Assembly: GCA_027972325.1 (NCBI GenBank)
Contig: JAPMOS010000093.1
Span: forward strand, 47,501 to 111,500
DNA length: 64,000 bases
Reading direction: 5' to 3'
Origin: Paratrimastix pyriformis
Lineage: Eukaryota; Preaxostyla; Paratrimastigidae
Shown: positions 1-64,000 of the stretch, piece after piece
How the letters are laid out: each line of letters starts with the position of its first letter
Numbering within the stretch: position 1 is the first letter of the stretch
The notes under the pieces: model-generated
What the model was told of the DNA's origin: nothing
Databases searched by the model: none
The model's input: the letters and a program-made list of their open reading frames with translations, nothing else
Program-made: the position numbers and the translations under genes

Positions 1-3000
1 AGTGACGACATGCTCCCGTGGGGGGGGGGGGGGGAGATGACGGACAGCTGGTGTGGAATCGAGGCTCACGGAAGCCCAGCCGACACCCCGCTGGTACGAG
101 TAGAGCAAGATGGGTCCGTTGTCCTGCAGGTCCGAGCAGACAAGCTGCGCAGAGGAAGGGAGAGAAGGAGGAATGGAAGGAGACCCATAGATGAGCAAAG
201 ACGCGTGTCGCGTGGTGGTGGGGTGGGAAGTATGGTCATTATCGTCAACATCAACATCAACATCAACATCAACAGCAACAGCAACAGCAACATCATCCAA
301 TCATCCAATCATCATCATCATCATCATCCAATCATCATCCAATCATCATCCAATCATCATCCAATCATCATCCAATCATCATCCAATCATCATCCAATCA
401 TCATCCAATCAACATCAACATCAACATCATCATCATCGTCAACAACGACAACATCATCCAATCATCATCATCATCATCATCCGATCATCCAGTCATCATC
501 ATCGTCAACAACGACAACATCAACAACAACATCCGCTCAAATGATCATCCAATAATGGAGGCGAGGGGATGGTACGGGCCATGAGGAGGGGCGGCTTTCC
601 GGGCACGTAGGCATCCATGTAGAGGAAGTGACTATGCGCAGGCGCTGAACACGTGGAGCCGGTTGGCGTCTGACCCGCAACTTCCACCCTGTGCAGAGTG
701 AGAGACGAAAATGAGAGGGTGCGGAAGAAACGGCCATCCGAATCCGTGGTCCTCGTCCCCTTAATCGCACTCATCATTCGGCCACTTGGTCTAGGGGCAT
801 GATTCTTGCTTAGGGTGCAAGAGGTCGCGAGTTCGATTCTCGCAGTGGCCCACATTTTTCGTTCTTTCATGCGGCAATGTGCACCCTCAACCGTCGAGAT
901 GAACGTGTCCTCCAAACCTTTACAAGCTGCTCGATTAGCTCAGTCGGTAGAGCGTTGCTCTAATAAGGCAACGGTCGCAGGTTCGATCCCTGCATCGAGC
1001 ACATTTTTCCTTTTTTCCCCAGCAGACCAATCCTCGTGCGTGCAATTGTAGGTCTTCAAGCCAGGGCCCGTCAGTTCGCAGAAGAACAGCCGATTCACGG
1101 CCTTGGTCGTCCCTGCGTCGGGTGAGAAGGAGTGCCGATATTGAAGATCATCGAATGCTCATCGTTCACGGATCGCAAGAGCGTCCGATCATCAACATCA
1201 ACATCAACATCAACAACATCAACATCATACTATCATCACTCTCCGGGTGAGCAGGAGCGCCGAGGGCGGAGACACTGAAGATCGAATGCTCATCGTTCAC
1301 GGATCGCAAGAGCAGCCAGCAGCGTCCGATCATCAACATCAACAACATCAACATCAACAACAACAACAACAACAACAACAACAACAACATCAACATCAAC
1401 ATCATCAACATCAACATCATATGTTCGATCATCAGAATCATCACAATCACCCATCATCATCAACATCAGCATCACCACCATCACCACCACCATCCAATTC
1501 ACCAACGTGTCATCATCATCCCATCATCATCACCAACATCCAGACCAGTGCTGACGGTCGGCACGAACGGCATGATGACGACCTGGCCCCGCTCCGGCTG
1601 GGAGTGATTGTACGCCAGTGCCATCGAGTGGCGGATGAGCGCACTGTATGGAGGATGGGGGGAGGAGGGGTGATATGGTAATGATGATGATGATGATGAT
1701 GATGATGATGATGATGATGATGATGGTGATGATGATGATGATGATGATGATGATCTCTCGGACCACCCCGGCCTCCCCGCCTGAGATCCGGCTGAGCCTC
1801 CAAAAGTGCCTCTCCTCCCTCGCCACCCTGCTCGTGCGCGACGCCCTGGCCCTGATGACCATGCGCAAAAGGGCGGAGCCGCACCCTGACACCACCCCCG
1901 CCCCTATCACCCACCCACTGGGGCTCCGCTCGCCGCGGCTGCCCGGCCGAGGAGGGCCCAACACGAGGTCATTAGGCCCAGGGCCCCCATCGGAACGTGT
2001 AACGCGCGACGCGAAGGCTGGAGTAAAGTTTCTCTTCGCCTGCGTCCGAGCAAATACACAGCATGGCTCTCTGATAGATGATGATGATGATGATGATGAT
2101 GATGATGATGATTGGATGATGATGATGATGATGATGATGATGATGATGATGATGATTGGATGATGCTGATGATGATGATGGTGATGGCGGTGATGATAGG
2201 ATGATGATGATGATGATGATGATGATGATGATGATGATGATGATGATGATGATGATGATGATGATGATGATGATGATGATGATTGGATGATGATGATGAT
2301 GATGATGATGATGATGATGATGATGATGATGATGATGATGATGATGATGAATTGTACACCCTGTATCGCTCCTTCCTTCTGCTCCTGCCCGACACGCATG
2401 CACCCGTTCGAATGCCAACAACAAGCGGTACACACGGCATCCATGGCGGCGCGCACACGTTCATACATGATGACACACAAACACACAGTATCCCCATGGC
2501 ACACACGGTCATACATGACACACACACACACACACACACACACACGGCATCCCCATGGCACACGCGGTACACGCGGGCGACACACAATGCACGCCAGCAC
2601 AACCCAGCCAGGGCTGGCGGATGGTGGTGACGGGCCCCATGTGAATTGTCCAGGCCGTGGATACCGACACATGACACACATGACACACATGACACGCATG
2701 ACACACATGACACACATGACACACATGACACACATGACACACATGACACACATGTACATGACACACATGTACATGACACACATGACACATGACACACATG
2801 ACACATGACACACATGTACATGACACACATGTACATGACACACATGACGCACGGGTACACCCAACACAGCTAGACGGGGGTGGCGGGCCTCATGTGGTCC
2901 GTCTCCGGCGATCCGTACCGACACACGATACATGATACACACGACGCACAATATACACATGACACACATACATGACACACATACATGATGACACACATAC

Positions 3001-5022
3001 ATGACACACATACATGATGACACACATACATGACACACATACATGACACACCCATGACACACCCATGACACACCCATGACACACCCATGACACACCCATG
3101 ACACACCCATGACACACCCATGACACACAAATGACACACAAATGACACACAAATGACACGCACATGACTATACATGACACATACATGACACATACATGAC
3201 ACATCCACCCACATATGACGCACGCATGACACACACATATGACACACATGACGCAGACACATGACGCACACATATGAAACACACATGACACACACACACA
3301 CACATGACATGCATGCAAACCTGAGCTGGCGGATGGGGGTGACGGGCCCCATGCGATTCTTCTCCGGCCCGTGGATGCCCATCTGCTGGAGGACGATGCC
3401 CGGGGTGCCCATCTCACGAAGCATCACCAGGTACTGCCCCGTCCCGCTGGCGTCCGTCGCCTGCAGGGGTTGGGTGGAGAGGGATGATGATGATGATGAC
3501 TGGATGATGATGATGGATGATGATGACGATGATGATGACGATGATGATGACGATGATGATTAGATGATGATTAGATGATGATGGCGATGATGATTAGATG
3601 ATGATTAGATGATGATGGCGATGCTGATGGCGATGCTGATGGCGATGCTGATGGCGATGATGATGATGGATGATGATGGCGATGATGATGGCGATGATGA
3701 TTAGATGATGATTAGATGATGATTAGATGATTAGATGATGATTAGATGATGATTAGATGATGATGGTGGGTGGTGGGTGGTGGTTGGTGGGTGATGGTAA
3801 TGCTGACGCAGATGCTGATTGGATGATTGGACGATGGTGATGATTGGATGATTGGATGATTGGATGATGATGACGACGACTGGATGCTGATTGGAGGTTG
3901 ATGATGCCCTTGTGTCTGTGTTTATGCTGGTGATGATGAATGGAGGATGGAAGATGCGCCATGATGTGCATGAGCGCTCGTGTGTGTCTGTGTGTGTCTG
4001 TGTGTGTCTGTGTGTGTCTGTGTGTGTCTGTGTGTGTCTGTGTGTGTCTGTGTGTGTCTGTGTGTGTCTGTGTGTCTGTGTGTGTCTGTGTGTGTCTGTG
4101 TGTGTCTGTGTGTGTCTGTGTGTCTGTGTGTCTGTGTGTGTCTGTGTGTGTCTGTGTGTCTGTGTGTGTCTGTGTGTGTCTGTGTGTGTCTGTGTGTGTC
4201 TGTGTGTGTCTGTGTGTGTCTGTGTGTGTCTGTGTGTGTCTGTGTGTGTCTGTGTGTGGTGTCCATCCACACCATATGACGGATCCCTTGTGGGTCCTGA
4301 TTTCCGGTCTCGGATGTTGACGTGCTCTTCCGCCTGAGCGCTTTGCCGTTGACTGACCCTTGTTCGCTGCTTGCGTATGCTGGCCTGGTGGACACTGCTT
4401 GACTATGGCGCTTCCCTCGTGGATTGTGCCTACATTTCTTGCGGTGTCTTTCTTCCCTCTTTTAAATGGTGGTGGTGGAGGAGGAGGCAGGGGTGGACGG
4501 ACCATGACCGAGCTGAGCACATCCTGTGCCAGGGGTTCCGCCACGGGATCCAAGGGCACTGCCTCCTCCACCGTGAAGTTGGTAAAGGTGAATTTGAGGA
4601 TGCTCTCGGGCGCGTCGTACGAGTCACGACCCCTGGGGGAATGTCGACCACCCGCGCCGGAAAATAATTACGAACCCGACGATATAAAATGCCTGCTCGG
4701 TGAGAATGGGAACGACCAACGAATTGGGATCGCTGCGAAATGGACTGACGATCGATACATTGACCCCGGGTGAAACGCAGTCGTCCGTCAGTGCAAAGTG
4801 GTTCCATACGTTGGAGTCCATGAGAGCCACTCGGACCTGGACGGAGGGAGGGGTTGAAAAAGACAGTTGTATGTCATGGCAGACGATATTGTTGGGTTCG
4901 CCGGGAGGTCCTCCGTATGTGACTAGGGTCTCCATCCGGCGTCCATCGAAATCTCGAATCATAGTCGACGCAGAGGCAGGGAATTGGGACCAGTCCGGGC
5001 GGACGGCGGTCGGATCAGACAT
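1..5022 (-). CDS. Multi-exon gene of unknown family, 3' end beyond the window
   Basis: I do not recognise the family. Start ATG is at 5022. Exons that join with matching phases are 4676..5022, 4503..4632, 3321..3460, 1546..1643, 1028..1112 and one beginning at 688 (to about 550); a further exon probably begins at 144 and the gene runs off the left edge. Donors are GTTCGT, GTCCGT, GTTTGC, GTCTGG and GTCTGC. The product begins [14 protein letters not shown] and looks beta-rich and soluble, with stretches such as [38 protein letters not shown] and [17 protein letters not shown] saw no signal peptide or membrane span. The intron between 1028 and 688 holds tRNA-Ile and tRNA-Pro on the opposite strand. 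A block at 1756-1870 is open on both strands and is left out, because the flanking exons join in phase without it. The first exons are well supported; the 3' part is tentative. Confidence 0.6.
233..540. repeat. CAT/AAC/CCAATCAT microsatellite block
   Basis: Nearly pure ACATCA, ATCATCCA and CAACGACAA units. Open frames across it give poly-His, Ser and Ile and are not genes. It lies in a putative intron. A similar block occupies 1190-1530. Confidence 0.9.
780..851 (+). tRNA. tRNA-Pro(AGG)
   Basis: The 72-nt cloverleaf has acceptor GGCCACT paired with AGTGGCC and discriminator C. The anticodon loop TTAGGGT gives anticodon AGG, and the T arm carries GTTCGATTC. A run of five T follows within 10 nt, which fits a Pol III terminator. 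There is no intron. The gene lies antisense inside an intron of the minus-strand gene. Confidence 0.95.
929..1001 (+). tRNA. tRNA-Ile(AAT)
   Basis: The 73-nt cloverleaf has acceptor GCTCGAT paired with ATCGAGC and discriminator A. The anticodon loop CTAATAA gives AAT, and the T arm is GGTTCGATCCC. A T run follows directly. It sits 77 nt downstream of tRNA-Pro, so the two form a small same-strand pair nested in a host-gene intron. Confidence 0.95.
1681..2352. repeat. ATG trinucleotide arrays in an intron
   Basis: Long ATG/GAT tracts occur at about 1681-1752 and 2075-2352, separated by about 320 bp of non-repeat DNA. They fall within the intron between exons 3321..3460 and 1546..1643 of the minus-strand gene. 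Read in the gene's sense the tract is CAT. Confidence 0.9.
2628..3330. repeat. ACACATGAC-type minisatellite with two echoes of the neighbouring exon end
   Basis: Units of ACACATGAC, ACACCCATGAC and ACACATACATG fill the block. Embedded in it, at about 2624-2670 and 2880-2930, are degraded copies of the 3' end of exon 3321..3460: GGGCCCCATG next to CCGTGGAT or CGATCCGT, as in the exon. Confidence 0.75.
3980..4258. repeat. TGTGTGTC octanucleotide minisatellite
   Basis: More than 30 copies of TGTGTGTC, some shortened to TGTGTC, lie in the intron between exons 4503..4632 and 3321..3460. A GAT-rich tract adjoins at about 3481-3890. The frames ([16 protein letters not shown]) are artefacts. Confidence 0.95.
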
Positions 5023-63862: not shown

Positions 63863-64000
63863 ATGAGCTCTTCTCAAGCAACCTCCGGCTCTCTTCAATG
63901 GCTTCGTAATGCCATGAAGAAGCACGAGAATGGTCTCGCTCGTCGTGTCCGTCACCACTATGAGAAAGATGCCCCCCTTAATGTACTTAAAAATGCCGGA
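63863..64000 (+). CDS. Start of a gene, truncated by the window end
   Basis: ATG at 63863 opens MSSSQATSGSLQWLRNAM, then KKHENGLARRVRHHYEKDAP, and stays open to the end. The charged helix-rich start has no signal peptide. The family cannot be judged. The minus strand is also partly open here, so the strand call is moderate. Confidence 0.5.
   Translation, partial: MSSSQATSGSLQWLRNAMKKHENGLARRVRHHYEKDAPLNVLKNAG

Follow-up and report, generated by a model that had tools for sequence, protein, structure and literature searches.

GTYYG donors and complementary U1 genes point to a recoded U1:5′ splice site helix in Paratrimastix pyriformis

The stretch of DNA analysed here (the window) comprises 64,000 nucleotides (nt) of the genome of Paratrimastix pyriformis (contig JAPMOS010000093.1; C489:47501-111500 in our numbering of the assembly, which has 56,060,509 bases in 495 contigs). 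Among other features, it carries a USP36-like gene on the + strand (about 51.4-54.6 kb) and two U2 small nuclear RNA (snRNA) genes (Table 1). A reading of the window made from its letters alone (the sequence-only reading) had assembled 83 donors (5′ splice sites), of which about 64 were GTCYG and about 72 had C at +3, and none was GTAAGT or GTGAGT. We found the same donor pattern in an independent set of genes of the same genome, and the U1 snRNA genes of this genome carry the complementary bases. The major spliceosome of Paratrimastix very probably uses a recoded U1:5′ splice site helix, in which the donors and U1 have changed together and U6 has not.

The USP36-like gene was the one window gene that was re-derived, and PDB 8bs3, which is partly masked with X, was used as the reference. 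When any GT or GC donor was allowed, seven introns were obtained, including four GTCYG, one GTCAT, one GTTTC (inside the masked reference), and one GC. The alignment score was 520 without restriction and 492 with GTYYG donors only, and it fell to 197 with GTRAG only and 187 with GTAYG only. The USP36-like gene behaved like the CCT genes described below. Furthermore, the GTYYG model read GRQEDAHEFLHAIFETVQ across the masked stretch, and splicing at introns 1 and 2 of Table 1 restored QEDAHEFL, which is lacking in the masked reference and which we take to be a conserved USP motif.

The independent set consisted of eight CCT chaperonin genes, which were picked as conserved and intron-rich. Of the 47 hidden Markov model matches, 46 were used and one (on C51) was left out. 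An eight-paralogue CCT profile returned a thermosome-rich set, which was unusable as orthologues. Seven genes were aligned as spliced protein to DNA, with orthologous CCT chains from PDB as references. The aligner imposes only GT (or penalised GC) and AG at the intron ends and is blind to +3 to +6. For the eighth gene, CCT-delta, the junctions were set by an exact match to a protein derived from the Transcriptome Shotgun Assembly (TSA). The CCT-delta protein assembled from exons had its best match in this protein, P0121, a EukProt entry named after TSA record GAFH01001239.1, and was 67% identical to P0122 from Paratrimastix eleionoma. Accession GAFH01 is presumably the P. pyriformis transcriptome. 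The spliced locus reproduced P0121 exactly (460/460 residues), and each of the seven junctions covered by it had a single GT-AG solution (7/7); junctions upstream of the first residue of P0121 were left uncounted. Finally, 54 introns were obtained, 47 under the GT/GC..AG rule only and 7 from P0121, and none was dropped.

The 54 donors included 25 GTCTG, 17 GTCCG, and 5 GTTTG, which means that 42 were GTCYG and 47 were GTYYG. The remaining seven occurred once each (GTCTA, GTTGG, GTATA, GTCGT, GTCAG, GTGCT, and GTCCC), and none of the 54 was GTRAG. At +3 there were 46 C, 6 T, 1 A, and 1 G, and at +4 there were 32 T, 19 C, 2 G, and 1 A. In addition, G was found at +5 in 49, G at -1 in 44, and T at +6 in 28 of the donors. 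Every one of the 54 introns was GT..AG (for 47, the aligner had imposed GT/GC..AG), and the acceptor had C or T at -3 in 51. The two counts of the sequence-only reading, GTCYG and +3 C, compare with 42 and 46 of 54 donors here, and the absence of GTAAGT and GTGAGT held as well. Some junctions are weak, namely a 39-nt GTGCT intron on C1, the GTCGT on C223, and the GTCCC on C112. Five introns either fall inside masked reference or come to within three residues of it (one on C112, three on C113, and one on C43), and all are GTCYG; without them, GTCYG makes up 37/49 and GTYYG 42/49.

It might be argued that the pattern is an artefact, because junctions had been chosen by donor similarity and the C at +3 mirrors the high G+C content of the genome. 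Indeed, the sequence-only reading itself admitted partial circularity, and GTCYG words are common in the window (195 and 150 on the two strands, vs 89 and 85 GTRAG). However, the donors obtained here blind to +3 to +6 gave equal proportions. As the background, we used 1283 sense-strand GT dinucleotides in the same CCT loci, of which 7.4% were GTCYG, 11.8% GTYYG, and 2.7% GTRAG. C was found at +3 in 34% of them, as against 85% of the CCT donors. The probability of at least 47 GTYYG in 54 against this background is about 2e-36, whereas the zero GTRAG alone is unsurprising (P = 0.22); the significance lies in the GTYYG excess. Moreover, the TSA-derived protein fixes seven junctions, and the complementary bases are carried by U1. 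We consider an artefact scarcely conceivable.

The restricted alignments support the GTYYG donor model. With GTYYG donors only, the scores of the seven genes were 941-1288 (941-1395 without restriction), whereas they were 31-371 with GTRAG only and 95-372 with GTAYG only. For seven introns (three GTCYG and four GTTTG), removal is judged from the one TSA-derived protein. In CCT-delta, the short introns of 45, 47, 53, and 56 nt are all GTTTG, and the longer ones of 95, 69, and 62 nt are GTCTG, GTCCG, and GTCTG, respectively. The consensus is better given as AAG/GTYYGT, since T is frequent at +3 in short introns. In L043-L050, four of the five GTTTG donors belong to introns shorter than 62 nt, and 33 of 34 introns of at least 62 nt have C at +3. 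Two length-linked donor classes are possible in these loci.

The U1 snRNA was then searched with the Rfam model RF00003, in which 41 of 992 candidates were scored. Eight genes were found at 50.8-60.2 bits, all at E<=0.001. The best copy had 60.2 bits (E 8.9e-14) and covered the full model (1-166). All eight genes start with AUACAGACCUUG (longer reads ATACAGACCTTG and ATACAGACCTTGCTTGGCCAG) rather than with the canonical AUACUUACCUG. The 5′-terminal ACUUACC is thus replaced by ACAGACC in 8/8 copies, and the change is AG instead of UU at nucleotides 5-6. The 5′ end is predicted to be AUACAGACC, and the likely start is the A of AUACAG, because an upstream element lies at a fixed spacing from it. 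The eight copies share a mean column identity of 98% and do not vary at all in the first 58 columns. A cloverleaf fold was predicted for the first copy (z -3.4). In addition, GAUCA is present in loop I, the U1-70K site, with GAUCACACAG in the loop aligned to the Rfam U1, and an Sm-like site CAUAAUGUUUGG aligned to the Sm region of the model (CATAATGTTTGG in seven copies and CAGAATGTTTGG, one base off, in L008). The U1A-binding loop of stem-loop II, whose expected sequence we assume from general knowledge, was not matched, and a GAAA tetraloop caps the second hairpin of the predicted fold. This divergence lowers the detail of U1, not its identity. A likewise divergent loop of stem-loop II is described in Giardia (PMC3510501).

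Two U1 populations could be imagined, with a canonical U1 for a GTRAG class and the AG-type U1 for GTYYG introns. In the diplonemid S. specki, a second U1 is described, and its 5′ end is C-rich (PMC12621601). However, the Rfam model, whose consensus begins with AUACUUACCUG, found only AG-type genes among the 41 of 992 candidates scored, and a strict pattern of ACUUACC on the Paratrimastix U1 body had 0 matches. Together with the lack of GTRAG donors, these results make a second, canonical U1 extremely unlikely.

The AG at U1 nucleotides 5-6 is exactly complementary to CU at +3/+4. In the register used here, C9 stands against -1, C8 against +1, A7 against +2, G6 against +3, A5 against +4, C4 against +5, and A3 against +6. 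Over the 54 donors, G6 forms a Watson-Crick pair in 46 and a wobble pair in 6, and A5 pairs in 32, C4 in 49, and A3 in 28. With a canonical UU at 5-6, only one Watson-Crick pair would form at +3 and one at +4. Since G6 can pair with C as well as with U, both subclasses, GTCYG and GTTTG, are accounted for. Furthermore, the duplex energy was better with the own U1 than with canonical U1 for 53 of the donors, and the U1 5′ end formed on average 7.1 of 11 Watson-Crick pairs at the donors vs 4.1 at 1226 other GT sites. Among the 16 dinucleotides possible at 5-6, AG ranked first by Watson-Crick pairs and second, after GG, by energy.

Alternatively, the U1 pairing might be unused at +3/+4, so that donors are recognized by -1, +1, +2, and +5 together with proteins, and U1 changed by neutral drift. 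It fits this idea that a search with the zf-U1 model did not yield U1-C, that U1-associated proteins are described as nearly absent in surveyed metamonads (PMC6679479), and that the +4 C of 19/54 donors mismatches A5. However, drift is not expected to yield 46/54 Watson-Crick pairs at G6 (52/54 including G-U), nor to make AG the best of the 16 dinucleotides by Watson-Crick pairs, and AG is kept in all eight copies. We regard drift as very unlikely. The sequence-only reading had offered either altered pairing of U1 and U6 or reliance on +1, +2, and +5 alone. The latter is unneeded. As for the former, the compensatory change that was to be sought in the two snRNAs was found at the U1 5′ end, and the U6 ACAGA box proved to be canonical.

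Several points weigh against the recoded helix. First, all U1 matches are under the Rfam gathering score of 69.5. Second, A5 is unable to pair with the +4 C just mentioned, and seven of the 54 introns fall outside GTYYG, among them GTATAT and GTCAGT. Third, U1-C and U1-70K were not demonstrated; the U1-C gene may be split by introns. The single zf-U1 match was set aside as U1-C, for its protein presumably resembles WBP4. Fourth, a METTL16-family gene is encoded in the genome, and +4 U reportedly accompanies METTL16 loss in yeasts; the METTL16-family gene together with +4 pyrimidines would then be off the yeast trend. In yeasts, the +4 preference is described as tracking the presence or absence of METTL16 (PMC10581693).

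The U6 snRNA (96.7 bits) was identical in the 4/4 copies found and has the canonical core GAUACAGAGAAGAUUAGC with the ACAGAG box. The ACA of this box matches +4 U, +5 G, and +6 U of the donors, as in GUAUGU introns. The branch-point region of U2 is also canonical (GUGUAGUAUC). On the recoded-helix reading, C9-C8-A7-G6-A5-C4-A3 of U1 would pair with the exon -1 G and the intron +1 to +6 GUCUGU. The change from UU to AG at U1 5-6 would go with C at donor +3 (or U via G-U wobble) and U (or C) at +4. U6 ACAGAG would then offer its ACA to +4 U, +5 G, and +6 U, and only the U1 recognition step and the donor consensus would have been rewritten. We infer that transcription of U1 begins at the predicted start, that U1 pairs in the stated register, and that U6 is engaged as usual.

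The recoding may have arisen within the lineage of Paratrimastix, with a GUAUGU-like ancestor as its starting point, because the oxymonad Streblomastix, a relative, has A, U, and G at +3 to +5. These Streblomastix donors are described in PMC1501061. From such a Preaxostyla ancestor, the donors would need only a change of +3 A to C or U, and U1 would gain A5, which fits the existing +4 U, and G6. The order of the U1 and donor changes is conjectural.

The upstream element of the U1 genes is TCCCATAA, followed after 49-50 nt by TTC directly before the first A in all eight. The same element and TTC were found at a spacing of 50 nt in both U2 genes, 51 nt in a U12 candidate, and 55 nt in a U6atac gene. 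In the U6 genes, the spacing is 56-57 nt and the last bases are TCG, with TCCCATAA in three of the four copies and ACCCATAA in L009. In the genome, TCCCATAA with TTC at 49-51 nt had 183 matches vs 13 for the reversed pattern. The element is widespread and hence not confined to snRNA genes. Of the 183 places, 30 were inspected downstream, which gave one known U1 gene and one U2 gene, and Rfam searches of 4 of the 30 loci and of 4 of 8 further fetched places gave no relevant match. Many of the listed matches belong to one repeat, and others may represent a general core promoter.

There are signs of a minor spliceosome in this metamonad. The U6atac gene (L054:1501-1633; C445:22122-22254) scored 46.6 bits, above the gathering score of 33, and its altered donor box is UGAGCCGAGAGAAGG vs the Rfam consensus UGAAAGGAGAGAAGG. 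The U12 candidate (L056:1501-1675, minus strand; C432:103343-103517) scored 44.9 bits, under the gathering score of 53, and GAGUAAGGAAAAU is conserved in it. U11 was not found by the Rfam model. At L088:85-110 (C168:162284 onward), TCCCATAA and AAATTC are followed by GTGTAAAACGGGCTTCT, a U11-like candidate with the start GUGUAAAACGGGCUUCU. We take this 5′ end to resemble that of U11, whose canonical start we assume to be AAAAAGGGCUUCUG; Rfam gave no match for the candidate, and no Sm site is evident in it. The U6atac and U11-like changes would both favour G at +7 of minor donors and disagree at +6. A genome pattern for minor introns built from the U6atac box alone (TATCGGY...TTCCTTRAC) had 1 match vs 1 control, and RTATCCGTT with a branch site had 0 matches in 346 kb, as had the canonical RTATCCTTT; clear minor introns were not obtained with these patterns. 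It is doubtful that both spliceosomes carry a rewritten donor code, with U1 and GTYYG in the major one and the U6atac and U11-like changes in the minor one.

The mapped features of the window are given in Table 1. According to the map of open reading frames, a Kre9/LamG-like gene is present in two tandem copies (about 35.4-42.9 and 43.1-50.3 kb), each of which contains one of the two U2 genes at an equivalent position, whereas no U2 match was obtained in a third copy, which is inverted (about 24-16.8 kb). For the Kre9/LamG-like multi-domain protein of 43070-50340, 7995 candidates were scored, and only 3 relatives had E<=1e-10; the query matched no Paratrimastix transcript and three distant proteins only. 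In addition, seven tRNA genes are scattered in the window, and long stretches of trinucleotide repeats (ATG/ATC- and GGT-type) and of TGTGTGTC repeats occur at 1681-2350, 4000-4260, and 7080-7520. The NTF2 family, named in the sequence-only reading, had no match in the window.

Table 1. Introns of the USP36-like gene and U2 snRNA genes in the window (both models: the GTYYG-only and the unrestricted alignment to 8bs3)
Feature	Position	Strand	Remarks
USP36-like intron 1	51808..51863	+	donor AAGA/GTCTGT, acceptor GAACAG; in the GTYYG-only alignment to 8bs3, absent from the unrestricted one
USP36-like intron 2	51964..52221	+	donor CCAA/GTCTGT; same donor in both models, unrestricted acceptor 52246
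USP36-like intron 3	52295..52400	+	donor CCAG/GTCTGC; donor and acceptor agreed by both models
USP36-like intron 4	52470..52931	+	donor TGTG/GTCCGC; donor and acceptor agreed by both models
USP36-like intron 5	53130..53840	+	donor GCAG/GTCCGC; GTYYG model; GC donor at 53121 in the unrestricted one, exact place less certain
USP36-like intron 6	53901..54192	+	donor CCCC/GTCCGT; GTYYG model; GTCATC at 53917 in the unrestricted one, exact place less certain
USP36-like intron 7	54316..54492	+	donor CATG/GTCCGT; donor and acceptor agreed by both models
U2 snRNA gene	37785..37980	+	RF00004, 160.1 bits; branch-point region GTGTAGTATCTGTTC; TCCCATAA upstream
Second U2 snRNA gene	45173..45368	+	160.0 bits; TCCCATAA upstream

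The U1 5′ end ACUUACC is treated as among the most fixed sequences of eukaryotes. Paratrimastix shares with the canonical U1:GURAGU system of vertebrates, plants, and fungi the cloverleaf U1, the Sm-like site, a 5′-terminal strand pairing with -3 to +8, and the U6 ACAGAG. However, its U1 has AG and not UU at 5-6, and its donors have YY and not RA at +3/+4. With the GUAUGU donors of yeast, Giardia, and Streblomastix it shares +4 U, +5 G, and +6 U, which can pair with the U6 ACA. Paratrimastix differs from Giardia and yeasts in having C/U at +3 and U1 ACAGAC, whereas A at +3 and U1 ACUUAC are described for them (PMC3510501, PMC10581693). Giardia is described as keeping U1 ACUUAC with the donor UAUGUU (PMC3510501). 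In the yeast survey, U1 candidates are given for 227/230 Saccharomycotina and 9/10 outgroups, with ACUUACC invariant. The survey considered that such a compensation might occur, with A at U1 position 5 for +4 U, but found none (PMC10581693).

In S. specki, a U1 gene also has a changed 5′ end. However, this second U1 is described as standing beside a canonical one, and both as fitting the canonical donor logo about equally (PMC12621601), whereas in Paratrimastix all eight U1 copies found are changed, and the donors too. The non-canonical introns of Fritillaria and Amoebophrya are likewise a large-scale departure from the usual donor. In Fritillaria the U1 5′ end is described as strictly conserved (PMC13326754), in Amoebophrya no U1 is described as found (PMC7789003), and the relevant parts of these two sources report no compensatory U1 change. 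For Entamoeba, too, the source describes no U1 as found (PMC13292270). In the open-access literature searched, no report of such a GTYYG donor or of an AG-type U1 was found, and the main text of the P. pyriformis genome paper (PMC10703272) has no mention of snRNA or the spliceosome. The joint recoding of the donor consensus and U1 at +3/+4 appears to be new, and the kind of interaction is known.

The two uridines at U1 nucleotides 5-6 are pseudouridines in humans and yeast. The recoding in Paratrimastix bears on the fate of the U1 pseudouridines, and also on METTL16 and the N6-methyladenosine of U6. It offers a natural experiment on how a code common to many introns changes, and on whether U1 or U6 constrains +3 and +4. 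Furthermore, lineages of this kind could escape gene finders and U1 searches that are tuned to GTRAGT and ACUUACC, and U1 has perhaps been overlooked in some of the organisms that were reported to be without it.

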